From the NCBI RefSeq assembly GCF_038561955.2, contig NZ_CP138333.2, positions 2,108,001 to 2,172,000 on the forward strand: a stretch of DNA of 64,000 nt. Reading direction: 5' to 3'. Position numbers and translations under genes: made by a program. This DNA comes from Salinicoccus sp. Bachu38 (GTDB lineage: Bacteria > Bacillota > Bacilli > Staphylococcales > Salinicoccaceae). The notes beneath the pieces were generated by a model. That model saw only the letters and a list, made by a program, of their open reading frames with translations. It made no database searches and was not told the origin of the DNA. This document shows positions 10,458 to 57,732 of the stretch, one piece after another (position 1 is the stretch's first letter; every line of letters starts with the position of its first letter).

Positions 10458-10503
10458 TATTTCCAGCTCCTTTGCCCTGAACCATCTGGCACAGAGTTTA
10501 TTA

Positions 10504-50890: not shown

Positions 50891-51547
50891 ATGACGACAG
50901 ACGTACTCTACAAACAGTCCTACAAGAACCGCCTCGGTGAAATCAACAAGCTTGCCCCGGAAGCCGCAAAAGCATTCGGACAGTTCGACCAGAAAGCGAT
51001 GGCGGAAGGCGTACTCCCTGCCAAACTGAAGGAGCTCATCGCTGTGGCAGTGGCCCATGTGACCGGCTGCCCATACTGCATCGATATCCATGTCAAGAAC
51101 CTGAAGAAGCTCGACGGCTCCAAAGAGGAGATGGCGGAATCCATCATGGTCGCCACTGCCCTCAAGGCAGGCTCAGCATATGCCCACAGCATCAATGCAC
51201 TGAATGCCTATGATGGAAACGAAGACGACAGCCTCTATGCCAAAGGGGACCTGAAGAACCTCGCACAGCTCAATAAGGTCACACCTGAAATCAACAAGGC
51301 ATTCCAGCAGTTCGATGCTGCTGCCATGCAGGAAGGCGCGCTCACAGCAAAAGAGAAAGAAATCATCGCTGTCGCCATCGCCCATGTGACCGGCTGCCCA
51401 TATTGCATCGAAATCCATACGGGAAATGCTAAAAAGATGAATGTCACGAAAGAGGAGATTGCCGAATCCATCTTCGTCGCAACAACATTGAAAGCCGGTT
51501 CGGCATATGCCCACGGCATCAATGCACTGAACGCCTATGATGAATAG
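50891..51547 (+). CDS. Doubled carboxymuconolactone decarboxylase (AhpD-like) protein
   Basis: Two AhpD-like domains lie in tandem in 218 residues. Each half carries the redox motif AHVTGCPYCI with CxxC and the downstream His, followed by ATALKAGSAYAH or ATTLKAGSAYAH. Such proteins reduce peroxides or act in alkyl hydroperoxide defence. Most relatives are single-domain. The halves are closely similar, suggesting a fairly recent internal duplication. AGGAGG precedes the ATG, and the gene has its own promoter and terminator. Confidence 0.88.
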   Translation: MTTDVLYKQSYKNRLGEINKLAPEAAKAFGQFDQKAMAEGVLPAKLKELIAVAVAHVTGCPYCIDIHVKNLKKLDGSKEEMAESIMVATALKAGSAYAHSINALNAYDGNEDDSLYAKGDLKNLAQLNKVTPEINKAFQQFDAAAMQEGALTAKEKEIIAVAIAHVTGCPYCIEIHTGNAKKMNVTKEEIAESIFVATTLKAGSAYAHGINALNAYDE

Positions 51548-51557
51548 ATGAAAAGAG

Positions 51558-51590
51558 CCTCATCCATACAATATGGATGAGGTATTTTTA
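51558..51590 (+). terminator. Terminator after the AhpD-like gene
   Basis: CCTCATCCATA pairs with TATGGATGAGG around CAA and is followed by TATTTTTATAT. It lies between the convergent AhpD-like and ATP-grasp genes and may serve both. Confidence 0.9.
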
Positions 51591-51596
51591 TATCAT

Positions 51597-52562
51597 CTAT
51601 CTATGGCTGCCCGCTTCCTCTTTCCCTACCGTTTCAAGCTCACGGCCAAGGAACTTCGCAAGTTCAAGCATGCCGTATTGGCCGGCTTCGGCTTCTGCAT
51701 CACTGTTGTAGTTTGTATTCGTGTTGATATCGTAAGTGTAGAGGTTTCCGTCTTCATCCTGGATGAATTCTATGCCTGCAACATTGATGCCGTTGTTTGC
51801 GAGCACCTTCTTATAATTTTCAAGGATCGGATGGTGGAAATCCTTGATGATCCTGAATTTCGGGGTGCCTTCTTCCTCCTGCTCCCCTGCCGGACAGAAC
51901 AGATCCTCTATGGAACACGCATCCGCCGGGCACAGTTCGAATCCTTCGGACGTGTCGACACGGACGGCATAGACGAATTCACCACCGACGAATTCACAGC
52001 GCGTAATGGAGGCGTCCGGTGATTTGATGTAGTCCTGGAGCAGTGTCACACCATCCACCGGCTCCTCGAATGCCTCGCTTCCGACATATGCTTCAAGGGC
52101 TTCGATGGAATCGAACAGCTGGACACCGAGACCTTTGCCTGCACGGTTATGCTTCGTGATGAAGGATTTCCCCTCAAACCGTTTCGCCGCTTCCAGGATC
52201 TGGTCCTTGCCGACAGCAGCCACGGTATTCGGCGTCTTTACGCCATATTTTTCAAGCTCCAGGTATTGGGACACCTTGCTCACTTCCAATTGCAGGGCCC
52301 GGCTGCCGTTGATTACCGTACGCCCGTGGTACTCAAGCCACGCAAGGACAGCATTCGTGAGCTCCGGAGAATAACGGTTGCCCCGTGTGTGTGAAGATGC
52401 GCTGATCCTGTTGTAGAAGACCCCTTCCGGCGGCTCTGCAGTCAGATCCACCTTGCCCTCTGACAGGAGCCAGTCCTCGTAGGGCAGCCCCAGTTCATCC
52501 AATCGCTTGAAAAGGTGATCGGTCCATTCAGGGTTTTCGTGCAGTACATATATTTTAGCCAT
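51597..52562 (-). CDS. ATP-grasp ligase under SAM riboswitch control
   Basis: This 321-residue carboxylate-amine ligase is of the RimK/glutathione-synthetase-like group. ATP-grasp features are the Lys and Gly-rich loop of SFITKHNRAGKGLGVQLF, the central LLQDYIKSPDASITRCEF, and the metal-binding end GIEFIQDEDG then YDINTNTNYNSD. The N-terminal domain starts AKIYVLHENPEWTDHLFKRL. AAGGAGTG precedes the ATG. A SAM-I riboswitch lies directly upstream, so the gene should be expressed when SAM is low. That points to sulfur or methionine metabolism, for example joining an amino acid to a methionine-, cysteine- or thiol-containing partner. The actual substrates are unknown. Confidence 0.82.
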   Translation of the reverse strand: MAKIYVLHENPEWTDHLFKRLDELGLPYEDWLLSEGKVDLTAEPPEGVFYNRISASSHTRGNRYSPELTNAVLAWLEYHGRTVINGSRALQLEVSKVSQYLELEKYGVKTPNTVAAVGKDQILEAAKRFEGKSFITKHNRAGKGLGVQLFDSIEALEAYVGSEAFEEPVDGVTLLQDYIKSPDASITRCEFVGGEFVYAVRVDTSEGFELCPADACSIEDLFCPAGEQEEEGTPKFRIIKDFHHPILENYKKVLANNGINVAGIEFIQDEDGNLYTYDINTNTNYNSDAEAEAGQYGMLELAKFLGRELETVGKEEAGSHR

Positions 52563-52619
52563 GCTACATCACTCCTTCAGTATTCATAAAACACAACTTA
52601 TCTGCGTATGCTGCACCTA

Positions 52620-52785
52620 TAAAGACAGAAGCCCTTTTCGGATAGGAAAAGAGCTTCTGACAATCTATATCTCTTCTCATCTTCCAGGCACAGACCTGAT
52701 GGAATTGGCACAGTATTCATAAGGAACCCGCTGCCGAAGCTTCGTCGGGCCATCTCCCTCTGCTTCTCTGGATAAGAATCAATTC
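52620..52785 (-). ncRNA. SAM-I (S-box) riboswitch with terminator
   Basis: On the minus strand the conserved S-box core is readable. P1 5' arm is TCTTATC (52771-52777), followed by CAGAGAAGCAGAGGGA and ATGGCCCGACGAAGC, then the P3 region, GTGCCAATTCC and P4 CAGG...CCTG. The P1 3' arm GATGAGA lies at 52675-52681. A terminator follows: CAGAAGCTCTTTTC with GAAAAGGGCTTCTG (52626-52659) and TCTTTAT. GAGAAGAG next to P1 can instead pair with CTCTTTTC of the terminator, giving the antiterminator. SAM binding should therefore stop transcription of the ATP-grasp gene. Confidence 0.93.
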
Positions 52786-52810
52786 ATATTAAGTTGATAG
52801 GTTAAAGAAT

Positions 52811-52839
52811 ATTCTATGCCATAATCCATGGATAGTCAA
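52811..52839 (-). promoter_or_regulatory. Promoter of the S-box transcript
   Basis: TTGACT (52834-52839) and TAGAAT (52811-52816) are spaced by 17 bases on the minus strand. The predicted start is near 52804, about 25 bases before P1 of the riboswitch. Confidence 0.75.
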
Positions 52840-55913: not shown

Positions 55914-55950
55914 TAGAGTACATACCAAATATTTATAAGGGGTGACACTT

Positions 55951-57732
55951 ATGTCCGAAGAAAAGAAAGGATTCTCCCGCAAAGTCCAGGCATTCGGCTC
56001 GTTCCTGAGCAGCATGATCATGCCGAATATCGCCGCCTTCATCGCCTGGGGACTGATCACAGCACTATTCATTGAAGCCGGATGGCTGCCGAACGAAGAA
56101 CTTGCCGGCATGGTCGGTCCGATGATCACATACCTCCTGCCACTGCTCATCGCCTATACCGGCGGTAAGCTCGTCCACGACGTCCGGGGTGGGGTCGTCG
56201 GCTCCACTGCGACAATGGGGATCATTACAGCATTCCCCGACTCCCCGATGCTCCTCGGTGCCATGATCATGGGACCACTCGGCGGCTACCTGATCAAACA
56301 GGTCGACCGTGTGCTTGTACCGCGCATCCGCCAGGGACTTGAGATGCTCGTCAACAACTTCTCTGCCGGCATCCTCGCCTTCCTGCTTGCACTGTTCGGC
56401 TTCTATGGTCTCGGCCCTGTCGTTTCCTGGCTGACGAATATGCTCGGAAGGCTCGTCGACATCGTCGTCGAGGCTGGCCTGCTGCCACTGGCGAGCATAT
56501 TCATCGAGCCCGCCAAAGTCGTATTCCTGAACAATGCCATCAACCATGGTGTGCTGACACCACTGGCCACCGAAGAAGTACAGGAAGCGGGACGCTCCAT
56601 ACTGTTCACGCTCGAATCCAACCCGGGTCCCGGCCTCGGCATCCTCGTCGCCTACATGGTATTCGGCAAGGGGACTGCACGTGCCACTGCACCGGGTGCT
56701 GCCATCATCCAGTTCGTCGGTGGTATCCATGAGATCTACTTCCCGTACATCCTCATGAAACCACTGCTCGTCGTCGCCGCAATACTCGGTGGCGCCACAG
56801 GCATCTTCACTTTCAGCCTGTTCGGCTTCGGCCTGTCCGGCCCTCCGGCACCAGGCAGCATCATCGCGTACTTCGCCATGACGCCAAGGGGCGAACATCT
56901 GATCATGTTCCTCGGCGTATTCGCAGCCGCACTCGTCTCCTTCATCGTGGCTTCACTCATACTGAAATTCACACGCCAGCCTGACGACGACATCGTCGGC
57001 GCGACGGAGAAGATGGAAGCGACCAAAGGCAGGAAATCTTCTGTTGCAGGTTCCCTGACACAGGCTGAAGCTGCTGAAACGGAAACTGCAGAAGCTGCGA
57101 CCTTCGACTACGGCAAAGTGGACAAGATCGTCTTCGCCTGCGATGCCGGCATGGGTTCAAGTGCCATGGGTGCGGGCATGCTGAAGAACAAGTTCAAAAA
57201 AGAAGGACTCGACATCGAAGTCACGAACTCCGCCATCAACCAGCTGAAGGGTGACGAGGACATCATCATCACACAGAAGACCTTGACTGAAAGGGCGGAA
57301 AGCAAAGTGCCGACTGCCAAGCATATCTCGGTCGACAACTTCCTCAACAGTCCGAAATATGACGAACTGACGGAAGAGCTGAAGCGGGAACAGAAGGGCG
57401 TGGCAACAGACGGCCAGGAAGCAGCGGACGCGCCGTTCGACTACAGCACGGTCGACAAGATCGTCTTCGCCTGCGATGCCGGCATGGGTTCAAGTGCCAT
57501 GGGCGCGGGTATGTTGAAGAACAAGTTCAAAAAAGAAGGGCTTGACATCGATGTCACGAATTCCGCCATCAATCAGCTGAAGGGCGACGAAGACATCATC
57601 ATCACACAGAAGACGCTGACTGAAAGGGCGGAAAGCAAAGTGCCGACTGCCAAGCATATCTCGGTCGACAACTTCCTCAACAGTCCGAAATATGACGAAC
57701 TGACGGAAGAGCTCAAGAAACACCAGAAATAG
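55951..57732 (+). CDS. mtlA: Mannitol PTS EIICB with two tandem EIIB domains
   Basis: MtlA imports and phosphorylates mannitol to mannitol-1-phosphate. The ATG at 55951 follows AAGGGGTG and gives 593 residues. A GTG nine bases earlier is also in frame. EIIC fills about residues 1-335, with GGIHEIYFPY and its His-Glu region. Unusually, two EIIB domains follow: F385 onward with phospho-Cys397, and F496 onward with phospho-Cys508, both in VFACDAGMGSSAMG. They are nearly identical and offset by exactly 111 residues, joined by an Ala/Glu-rich linker. Normal MtlA has one EIIB. The separate EIIA is MtlF, two genes on. Confidence 0.95.
   Translation: MSEEKKGFSRKVQAFGSFLSSMIMPNIAAFIAWGLITALFIEAGWLPNEELAGMVGPMITYLLPLLIAYTGGKLVHDVRGGVVGSTATMGIITAFPDSPMLLGAMIMGPLGGYLIKQVDRVLVPRIRQGLEMLVNNFSAGILAFLLALFGFYGLGPVVSWLTNMLGRLVDIVVEAGLLPLASIFIEPAKVVFLNNAINHGVLTPLATEEVQEAGRSILFTLESNPGPGLGILVAYMVFGKGTARATAPGAAIIQFVGGIHEIYFPYILMKPLLVVAAILGGATGIFTFSLFGFGLSGPPAPGSIIAYFAMTPRGEHLIMFLGVFAAALVSFIVASLILKFTRQPDDDIVGATEKMEATKGRKSSVAGSLTQAEAAETETAEAATFDYGKVDKIVFACDAGMGSSAMGAGMLKNKFKKEGLDIEVTNSAINQLKGDEDIIITQKTLTERAESKVPTAKHISVDNFLNSPKYDELTEELKREQKGVATDGQEAADAPFDYSTVDKIVFACDAGMGSSAMGAGMLKNKFKKEGLDIDVTNSAINQLKGDEDIIITQKTLTERAESKVPTAKHISVDNFLNSPKYDELTEELKKHQK
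57103..57396 (+). repeat. Direct repeat copy 1 (first EIIB coding segment)
   Basis: About 294 bases coding the first EIIB domain, repeated 333 bases downstream with very few changes, most of them at third codon positions. The period is a whole number of codons, so the frame is kept. Confidence 0.9.
57436..57729 (+). repeat. Direct repeat copy 2 (second EIIB coding segment)
   Basis: The second copy of the EIIB segment. Differences from copy 1 include GGCAAAGTG versus AGCACGGTC near the start and IEV versus IDV at the protein level, showing the copies have begun to diverge or have been partly homogenised. Confidence 0.9.

Follow-up and report, generated by a model that had tools for sequence, protein, structure and literature searches.

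The locus analysed here lies on the minus strand of a 64,000-nucleotide stretch of the Salinicoccus sp. Bachu38 genome (contig NZ_CP138333.2), referred to below as the window. It comprises a SAM-I riboswitch (S-box) leader and a single gene for an ATP-grasp ligase, with the following features:

52811..52839, minus strand: sigma-A type promoter (TTGACT, 17 nt, TAGAAT), 10 of 12 consensus matches
52674..52778, minus strand: SAM-I (S-box) aptamer, full-length RF00162 match, 82.4 bits, E 6.3e-18
52641..52681, minus strand: predicted antiterminator, P1 3' strand with the terminator 5' arm, RNAfold -7.6 kcal/mol
52626..52659, minus strand: intrinsic terminator of the switch, 14-pair stem, tail TCTTTATAGG, -17.6 kcal/mol
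52572..52577, minus strand: ribosome binding site AAGGAG, read from the sequence
51597..52562, minus strand: ATP-grasp ligase gene, 321 aa, RimK/LysX/ArgX fold, intact open frame
51915..51941, minus strand: motif F-x-L-C-P-A-D/E-x-C, ligase residues 208-216, regular expression match
51557..51583, both strands: bidirectional terminator closing the single-gene transcript, from a terminator search

The initial annotation had proposed a full S-box core, a promoter and a single 321-residue ATP-grasp gene with a good start site, and all of these were borne out. The RF00162 search placed the aptamer at 52778-52674 on the minus strand, where the match spans model positions 1-108 and exceeds the gathering score of 44.4. 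When this S-box was aligned with 14 other genus S-boxes, 14 of the 28 consensus pairs showed double-sided changes in at least one sequence. TTGACA/T hexamers were read by eye at the corresponding place in the leaders of relatives; as a background for the promoter of the window, the shuffled region yields a mean of 1.2 promoter-like sites. Terminator-like sites number four in the region versus 1.0 in shuffles, and the T tract after the terminator of the switch is modest. Mutual exclusion of terminator and antiterminator, also claimed initially, is plausible because the P1 3' strand and the terminator 5' arm can form an alternative pairing. These competing pairings are predicted; in the equilibrium folds, which are thermodynamic, the terminator also forms with P1 blocked. 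Convergent with the ligase gene is a gene (50891-51547, plus strand) for a protein with two AhpD-like (carboxymuconolactone decarboxylase) domains, which exceeds the cut-off of NCBIfam TIGR04169 (arsenosugar-associated peroxidase-like).

The ligase barely reaches the Pfam RimK family (21.4 bits, cut-off 21) and scores below NCBIfam rimK_fam (TIGR00768; 62.4 bits versus a cut-off of 143.4) and the LysX model TIGR02144 (43.6 bits versus 275.6). An AlphaFold2 model built from 41 sequences (mean pLDDT 85.9) places the protein in the ATP-grasp fold, with the best matches to ArgX (Z 23.2, rmsd 3.0, 269 residues aligned), LysX (22.9) and RimK (21.8). The modelled chain shares the fold of these enzymes over almost its whole length, including the ATP-grasp core (Z 21.4-23.2). 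Glutathione synthetase matched less well (Z 19.2); of the RimK/glutathione-synthetase-like description given initially, the fold comparison favours the RimK/LysX/ArgX side. Unlike RimK, LysX and ArgX, to which its sequence identity is 21% at most, the ligase stays under the NCBIfam cut-offs, carries the FxLCPADxC loop and has no recurrent carrier gene seen nearby. The F-x-L-C-P-A-D/E-x-C motif is present in 119 of 120 ligase homologues, 80 of which were fetched with part of that motif as one of two seeds, and it sits in a low-confidence loop (segment 209-229, pLDDT below 50). The glycine-rich loop and a YDINTNTNYN motif are mostly retained across 17 diverse homologues. In a phylum-wide draw of 398 genomes the ligase was found in three and in none outside the class Bacilli, and a search for virus or phage homologues gave none.

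Operon arrangement in related Bacilli

Homologues were fetched with the seeds [TIV]KHNRAGK and GF[EQ]LCPAD, and the best 80 of 561 loci, all from Bacilli, were kept as named loci; because of this selection their S-box rates lean towards the window. A gene for an FMN-type monooxygenase, which belongs to the SfnG/SsuD family and is hereafter called LLM, recurs beside the ligase gene. Among these nearest named relatives (best 80 of 561), LLM immediately precedes the ligase in 48 loci, and in 40 of these an S-box heads the operon, while the 32 loci that lack an upstream LLM include six with an S-box and 26 with neither. Altogether, 46 of the 80 ligase loci have an S-box. These counts treat as LLM-bearing two loci with over-long ligase ORFs that were assigned by hand (L095 and L109). 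No T-box core motif was found in the 700 bases before the ligase gene at any of the 80 named loci.

A second, genus-spread set consists of 40 loci from 39 Bacilli genera. LLM is adjacent to the ligase in 21 of them, upstream in 16 and downstream in five (L055, L067, L069, L077 and L085). Nine of these 21 loci have an operon-head S-box and one, L055, has an S-box between the ligase and LLM genes, a placement that would control LLM only. Within-operon S-boxes, at 10 of 40 loci, are sparser here than in the 80 named loci. The set holds 12 S-box matches, nine of them at operon heads, with L055, L050 (opposite strand, facing away from the operon) and L081 (a second, divergent S-box) accounting for the rest. 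The nine include L073, whose LLM frame carries a stop codon, as does that of L050. Among the 80 named loci, L153 was counted as having LLM without an S-box, although an S-box heads the same apparent operon in the order S-box, metNIQ-like genes (scores below cut-offs), LLM and ligase. A search for Rfam leaders in 10 selected ligase or LLM loci that have no S-box brought only a tRNA to threshold. When relatedness was considered, 6.6 pairs spoke for and 2.0 against an association between S-box and LLM presence (median p 0.18), so on independent pairs it has the expected direction but is not significant. Taking the eight ligase carriers of the same genus (seven with an S-box), the 80 named loci (46, from the best 80 of 561) and the 40 genus-spread loci (10), S-box control recurs with the ligase gene, and homologues do not consistently lack it.

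The partner LLM does not reach the SfnG cut-off (293.9 bits versus 382.95). Among solved chains its nearest match is 3rao, a putative monooxygenase (554 bits); SfnG 8t0u scores 198 bits, MsuD 157 and SsuD 126. It is homologous to these two-component monooxygenases and, as with them, SsuE and SsuA-type genes occur near it in some genomes, as does one true SfnG (573 bits). The sfn/msu clusters, as far as they are described in one account (PMC8234197), name no ligase.

The initial annotation asked which sulfur genes co-occur with homologues; LLM, SsuE, SsuA-type and homocysteine synthase genes are found near them in relatives. In four Oceanobacillus genomes the ligase-LLM pair is flanked on one side by a divergent, S-box-led unit of SsuE and an NtaA-type LLM, and on the other by a gene for homocysteine synthase, behind which come SsuABC-type transporter genes; family membership was tested in one of the four for SsuE, the synthase and SsuA, and in another for the NtaA-type LLM. 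In two of these four genomes a separate S-box precedes the homocysteine synthase. No other neighbour family, counted among genes of at least 80 residues, exceeds 11 loci in the set of 40 or 13 in the set of 80, and the families that come this high are ABC ATPases. No recurrent small gene beside the ligase emerged from these clustered neighbourhoods with the same exclusion, and no deacylase or conjugate-releasing hydrolase was noticed by eye among the 30 commonest neighbour clusters. The ligase is paired with a dicarboxylate/amino acid:cation symporter gene on Pediococcus plasmids and in two further Bacilli, and on a Spirosoma plasmid a distant homologue (30%) has two genes for amino acid permeases and one for an SsuD-like LLM behind it. 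In three LLM-less loci from Neobacillus/Pseudoneobacillus (L131, L162 and L168), the genes upstream of the ligase include members of a single cluster; the L131 member resembles an L,D-transpeptidase by eye.

S-boxes usually control methionine, cysteine and SAM genes, and we know of no ligase among their targets. The aptamer, the transcription-attenuation layout and the physiological signal at the locus in the window are nevertheless like those of known S-box regulons. The RF00162 search found 10 S-boxes in the genome of the window; to judge from the frames that follow, the remaining nine head methionine or sulfur genes, namely two O-acetylhomoserine-sulfhydrylase-type genes, two NtaA-type LLM genes of about 460 residues, two metN-type ABC genes, an NhaC-type transporter, metK and a YxjG/MetE-like gene. 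The two NtaA-type LLMs are 52-55% identical to their Oceanobacillus counterparts. Various novel Bacillales genes, probably of cysteine or methionine metabolism, are mentioned under SAM riboswitches in one earlier paper (PMC3766115).

Origin of the solitary ligase in Salinicoccus

The ligase is present in eight of 12 same-genus genomes and in none of 21 other genomes examined in the family. Its S-box scores above the gathering score in seven of these eight carriers; in the eighth (G007, locus L013) most of the aptamer is missing, which, judged from the sequence, is a recent natural loss of the riboswitch. By eye, that leader still shows a promoter-like sequence and the two edges of the aptamer.

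One of the 12 genomes, G005, retains LLM between the S-box and the ligase. In S. cyprini, whose ligase is 90% identical to that of G005, the leader keeps a 3' stub of LLM (score 48, against 34 for the best of 500 shuffles); no such stub was found in the other six of the seven same-genus leaders tested. Because G005 keeps the S-box, LLM and ligase in order and S. cyprini keeps the stub, the solitary ligase of the window is a derived state that followed the loss of LLM. The gene is therefore not stand-alone in the sense in which it had first been described. Outside the genus, LLM fossils were found at four of the 32 named loci that have no adjacent LLM, in Neobacillus rhizophilus, N. jeddahensis, Gottfriedia endophytica and Mesobacillus maritimus; their E values run from 1e-29 to 1e-8, and the best value among 780 shuffled regions was 0.005. 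On the ligase tree the adjacent-LLM state changes 18 times, with at least 13 of the changes on supported branches.

The closest named relative of the ligase in the window is that of S. luteus, with 97% protein identity and a dN/dS of 0.030. Compared pairwise, the window, S. luteus and G007, none of which has LLM, give dN/dS values of 0.030, 0.038 and 0.056, and these point to strong purifying selection on the ligase that persists after the loss of its neighbour.

Co-occurrence and replacement by a second, putative ligase

Among 398 Bacilli genomes, the ligase (E 1e-30) was found in 105 and LLM (E 1e-100) in 64, with both in 62, LLM alone in two and the ligase alone in 43; the two counts were taken as covering the same 398 genomes, since the handles agree. 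Co-occurrence is strong (Fisher p 2.7e-41, a statistic that ignores kinship) and holds by genus, with the ligase also present in 23 of 24 LLM genera. The asymmetry between two LLM-alone and 43 ligase-alone genomes suggests a dependence of LLM on the ligase rather than of the ligase on LLM. With 43 of 105 ligase genomes lacking LLM, the ligase must in turn have another role or partner.

Of the 62 genomes that have both genes, 53 carry them no more than about 2 kb apart, and one further genome (G238), with the genes on separate small contigs, falls outside this linkage count. In the remaining eight LLM is far from the ligase, and all eight of these unlinked LLMs have an upstream S-box, directly in two cases and about 2 kb upstream in six. 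In those six, which come from two genera (two match Tumebacillus contigs), a homocysteine methyltransferase / MTHFR gene is placed between the S-box and LLM; it was seen in four of the six and its family tested in one.

The two genomes with LLM alone differ in content. G209 has an S-box and LLM with neither ligase found, whereas in G157 the order is S-box, another ATP-grasp protein and LLM. A protein 44% identical to that of G157 is encoded on a plasmid of Deinococcus peraridilitoris, where an S-box is again followed by the ATP-grasp gene directly before LLM. The same ATP-grasp-LLM pair occurs on a D. deserti plasmid, with no S-box over threshold, after the genes for D-cysteate sulfo-lyase (cuyA; 535 bits, cut-off 450) and cysteate racemase (cuyB; 271 bits, cut-off 190). 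This second protein has no significant similarity to the ligase of the window (BLASTP E 0.025 and 0.037 in single comparisons). It matches an NCBIfam carbamoyl-phosphate-synthase-like model below cut-off (43 bits, E 2e-11) and Pfam also below cut-off, and together with the record annotations these low scores give it a weak assignment as a putative ATP-grasp ligase. The evidence for replacement comprises these three cases, two Deinococcus plasmids and G157. In our view it provides the strongest argument available: since an apparently unrelated ligase replaces the window-type ligase beside the same LLM, it is probably amide ligation itself that is needed. CuyA was also considered as a general companion of the ligase and set aside, as it exceeds the cut-off in three of 40 ligase genomes versus none of 40 others, which is too few to judge by.

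Proposed role in organosulfur salvage

With moderate confidence, we favour the view that the ligase is part of a SAM-riboswitch-controlled module for organosulfur salvage, in which it would condition a substrate for C-S cleavage. In its common form the module consists of an S-box, the FMN-type LLM monooxygenase and the ligase, and in some genomes it stands beside genes for SsuA-type import, an SsuE FMN reductase and homocysteine synthase. At low SAM the riboswitch would let transcription proceed, and the ligase would be made. We infer that it forms an amide with an amino acid or with an organosulfur compound that resembles one, after which LLM would cut the C-S bond of the conjugate oxidatively and the freed sulfur would pass to homocysteine and on to methionine. 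The LysX/ArgX/RimK fold suggests that the substrates are of amino-acid type, as do the amino acid permeases and Glu/Asp-type symporters beside some homologues and, in one case, cysteate genes. The order of the two reactions is not readable from gene order, since the ligase sits before LLM in some loci and after it in others. In the Salinicoccus lineage of the window, the partner LLM has been deleted, leaving the S-box directly before the ligase, which there probably has other partner enzymes, such as the two S-box-controlled NtaA-type LLMs of the same genome. The initial annotation had expected an enzyme that makes or salvages a sulfur compound. The salvage context agrees with the findings, but the frequent partner, an SfnG/SsuD-family FMN monooxygenase, points to organosulfur breakdown and not to the making of a thiol or of a methionine- or cysteine-containing peptide.

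A known route in Bacillus subtilis offers a comparison. There, S-modified cysteines are first N-acetylated and an FMN monooxygenase then cleaves their C-S bond, and ScmK attacks the N-acetylated compound and not the free one; the scm/yxe, ytn and yha clusters combine an N-acetyltransferase, an FMN monooxygenase and a deacetylase, to the extent that these accounts describe them (PMC12757645, PMC10863075). As in that route, a putative amine-modifying enzyme lies beside a putative C-S-cleaving FMN monooxygenase. Judged as an operon for acyl transfer and monooxygenation, and by its genes alone, the module has the ligase in the position of the acetyltransferase and the monooxygenase present. The ligase may act as a counterpart of the acetyltransferase that spends ATP and serves a different substrate. 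Unlike S-alkylcysteine salvage, the candidate modifier here is an ATP-grasp ligase, the monooxygenase belongs to the SfnG/SsuD branch, control is by S-boxes, and no linked deacylase was noticed by eye in the 30 commonest neighbour clusters.

A broader reading, which we hold only tentatively, is that this is a new SAM-riboswitch salvage route, with the amide formed first and the C-S bond cut afterwards, for which a ligase has been recruited at least twice. One recruited branch would be RimK-like, in most Bacilli that have the route, and the other carboxylate-amine-ligase-like, in Deinococcus and one Bacilli lineage; a second role of the ligase would let it survive the loss of the monooxygenase. 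The ligase-LLM module appeared in none of the literature searched, a scope that stopped short of the 2004 comparison of methionine regulation in Gram-positive bacteria. The pair occurs in about one sixth of the sampled Bacilli genomes and the ligase in about one quarter; the riboswitches tie the pair to SAM shortage and its neighbours tie it to organosulfur use. If ligation takes place as proposed, ATP-driven conjugation ahead of oxidative C-S cleavage would be a new chemical strategy in sulfur salvage, and functional names could be given to proteins annotated as "alpha-L-glutamate ligase", "carboxylate-amine ligase" and "LLM class flavin-dependent oxidoreductase". The hypothesis is directly testable, because two unrelated ligases stand beside one monooxygenase.

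Several other explanations were weighed. The ligase might make a sulfur peptide or low-molecular-weight thiol for storage or protection at low SAM, with LLM a separate enzyme that merely shares the signal. The 43 of 105 ligase genomes that lack an LLM of this subfamily would fit such a role, as would the survival of the ligase under strong selection after LLM loss and its pairing with symporter genes on Pediococcus plasmids and in two further Bacilli. Yet LLM is seldom found without the ligase (two of 64), an unrelated ATP-grasp protein appears to substitute beside it, and fold scores prefer LysX/ArgX/RimK over glutathione synthetase; we regard this role as rather unlikely. The need of LLM for the ligase would also be accounted for if the ligase modified a protein or cofactor, such as a carrier protein (as LysX and ArgX do) or the flavin of the monooxygenase, and the best folds are indeed those of carrier-protein ligases and of RimK, which glutamylates protein. 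We nonetheless consider it unlikely, given that besides LLM the most frequent neighbours are ABC ATPases (in no more than 11 of the 40 and 13 of the 80 loci, among genes of at least 80 residues) and that the SsuE-type FMN reductase nearby in Oceanobacillus suits ordinary FMNH2.

In the window the gene might also be a functionless remnant of an operon that has broken up. Its frequent partner has been lost and the close relative G007 has also lost most of the aptamer, but the frame is intact, the core motifs are retained and the low dN/dS values among the three LLM-less genomes largely refute this idea, which is hardly credible. As for the substrate, it is very unlikely to be cysteate or a close amino-acid sulfonate. 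In its favour, the D. deserti pair follows cuyA and cuyB, and Glu/Asp-type symporter genes stand beside some homologues; carriers of this type could accept cysteate-like analogues. Against it, the D. deserti arrangement is a single case, and CuyA exceeds its cut-off in only three of 40 ligase genomes and was not found in the genome of the window.

Further features were recorded away from the ligase gene. The window contains an L31-Firmicutes ribosomal protein leader (10467-10496, minus strand; RF03156, 35.4 bits, cut-off 33.3) and a gene for a PTS-like protein (55942-57732, plus strand) with a C-terminal tandem of two near-identical ACDAGMGSS-type domains, IIB-like by eye. Near the ligase locus of another same-genus genome (L018, positions 1-191) there is a partial 5_ureB match (RF02514, 47.8 bits).
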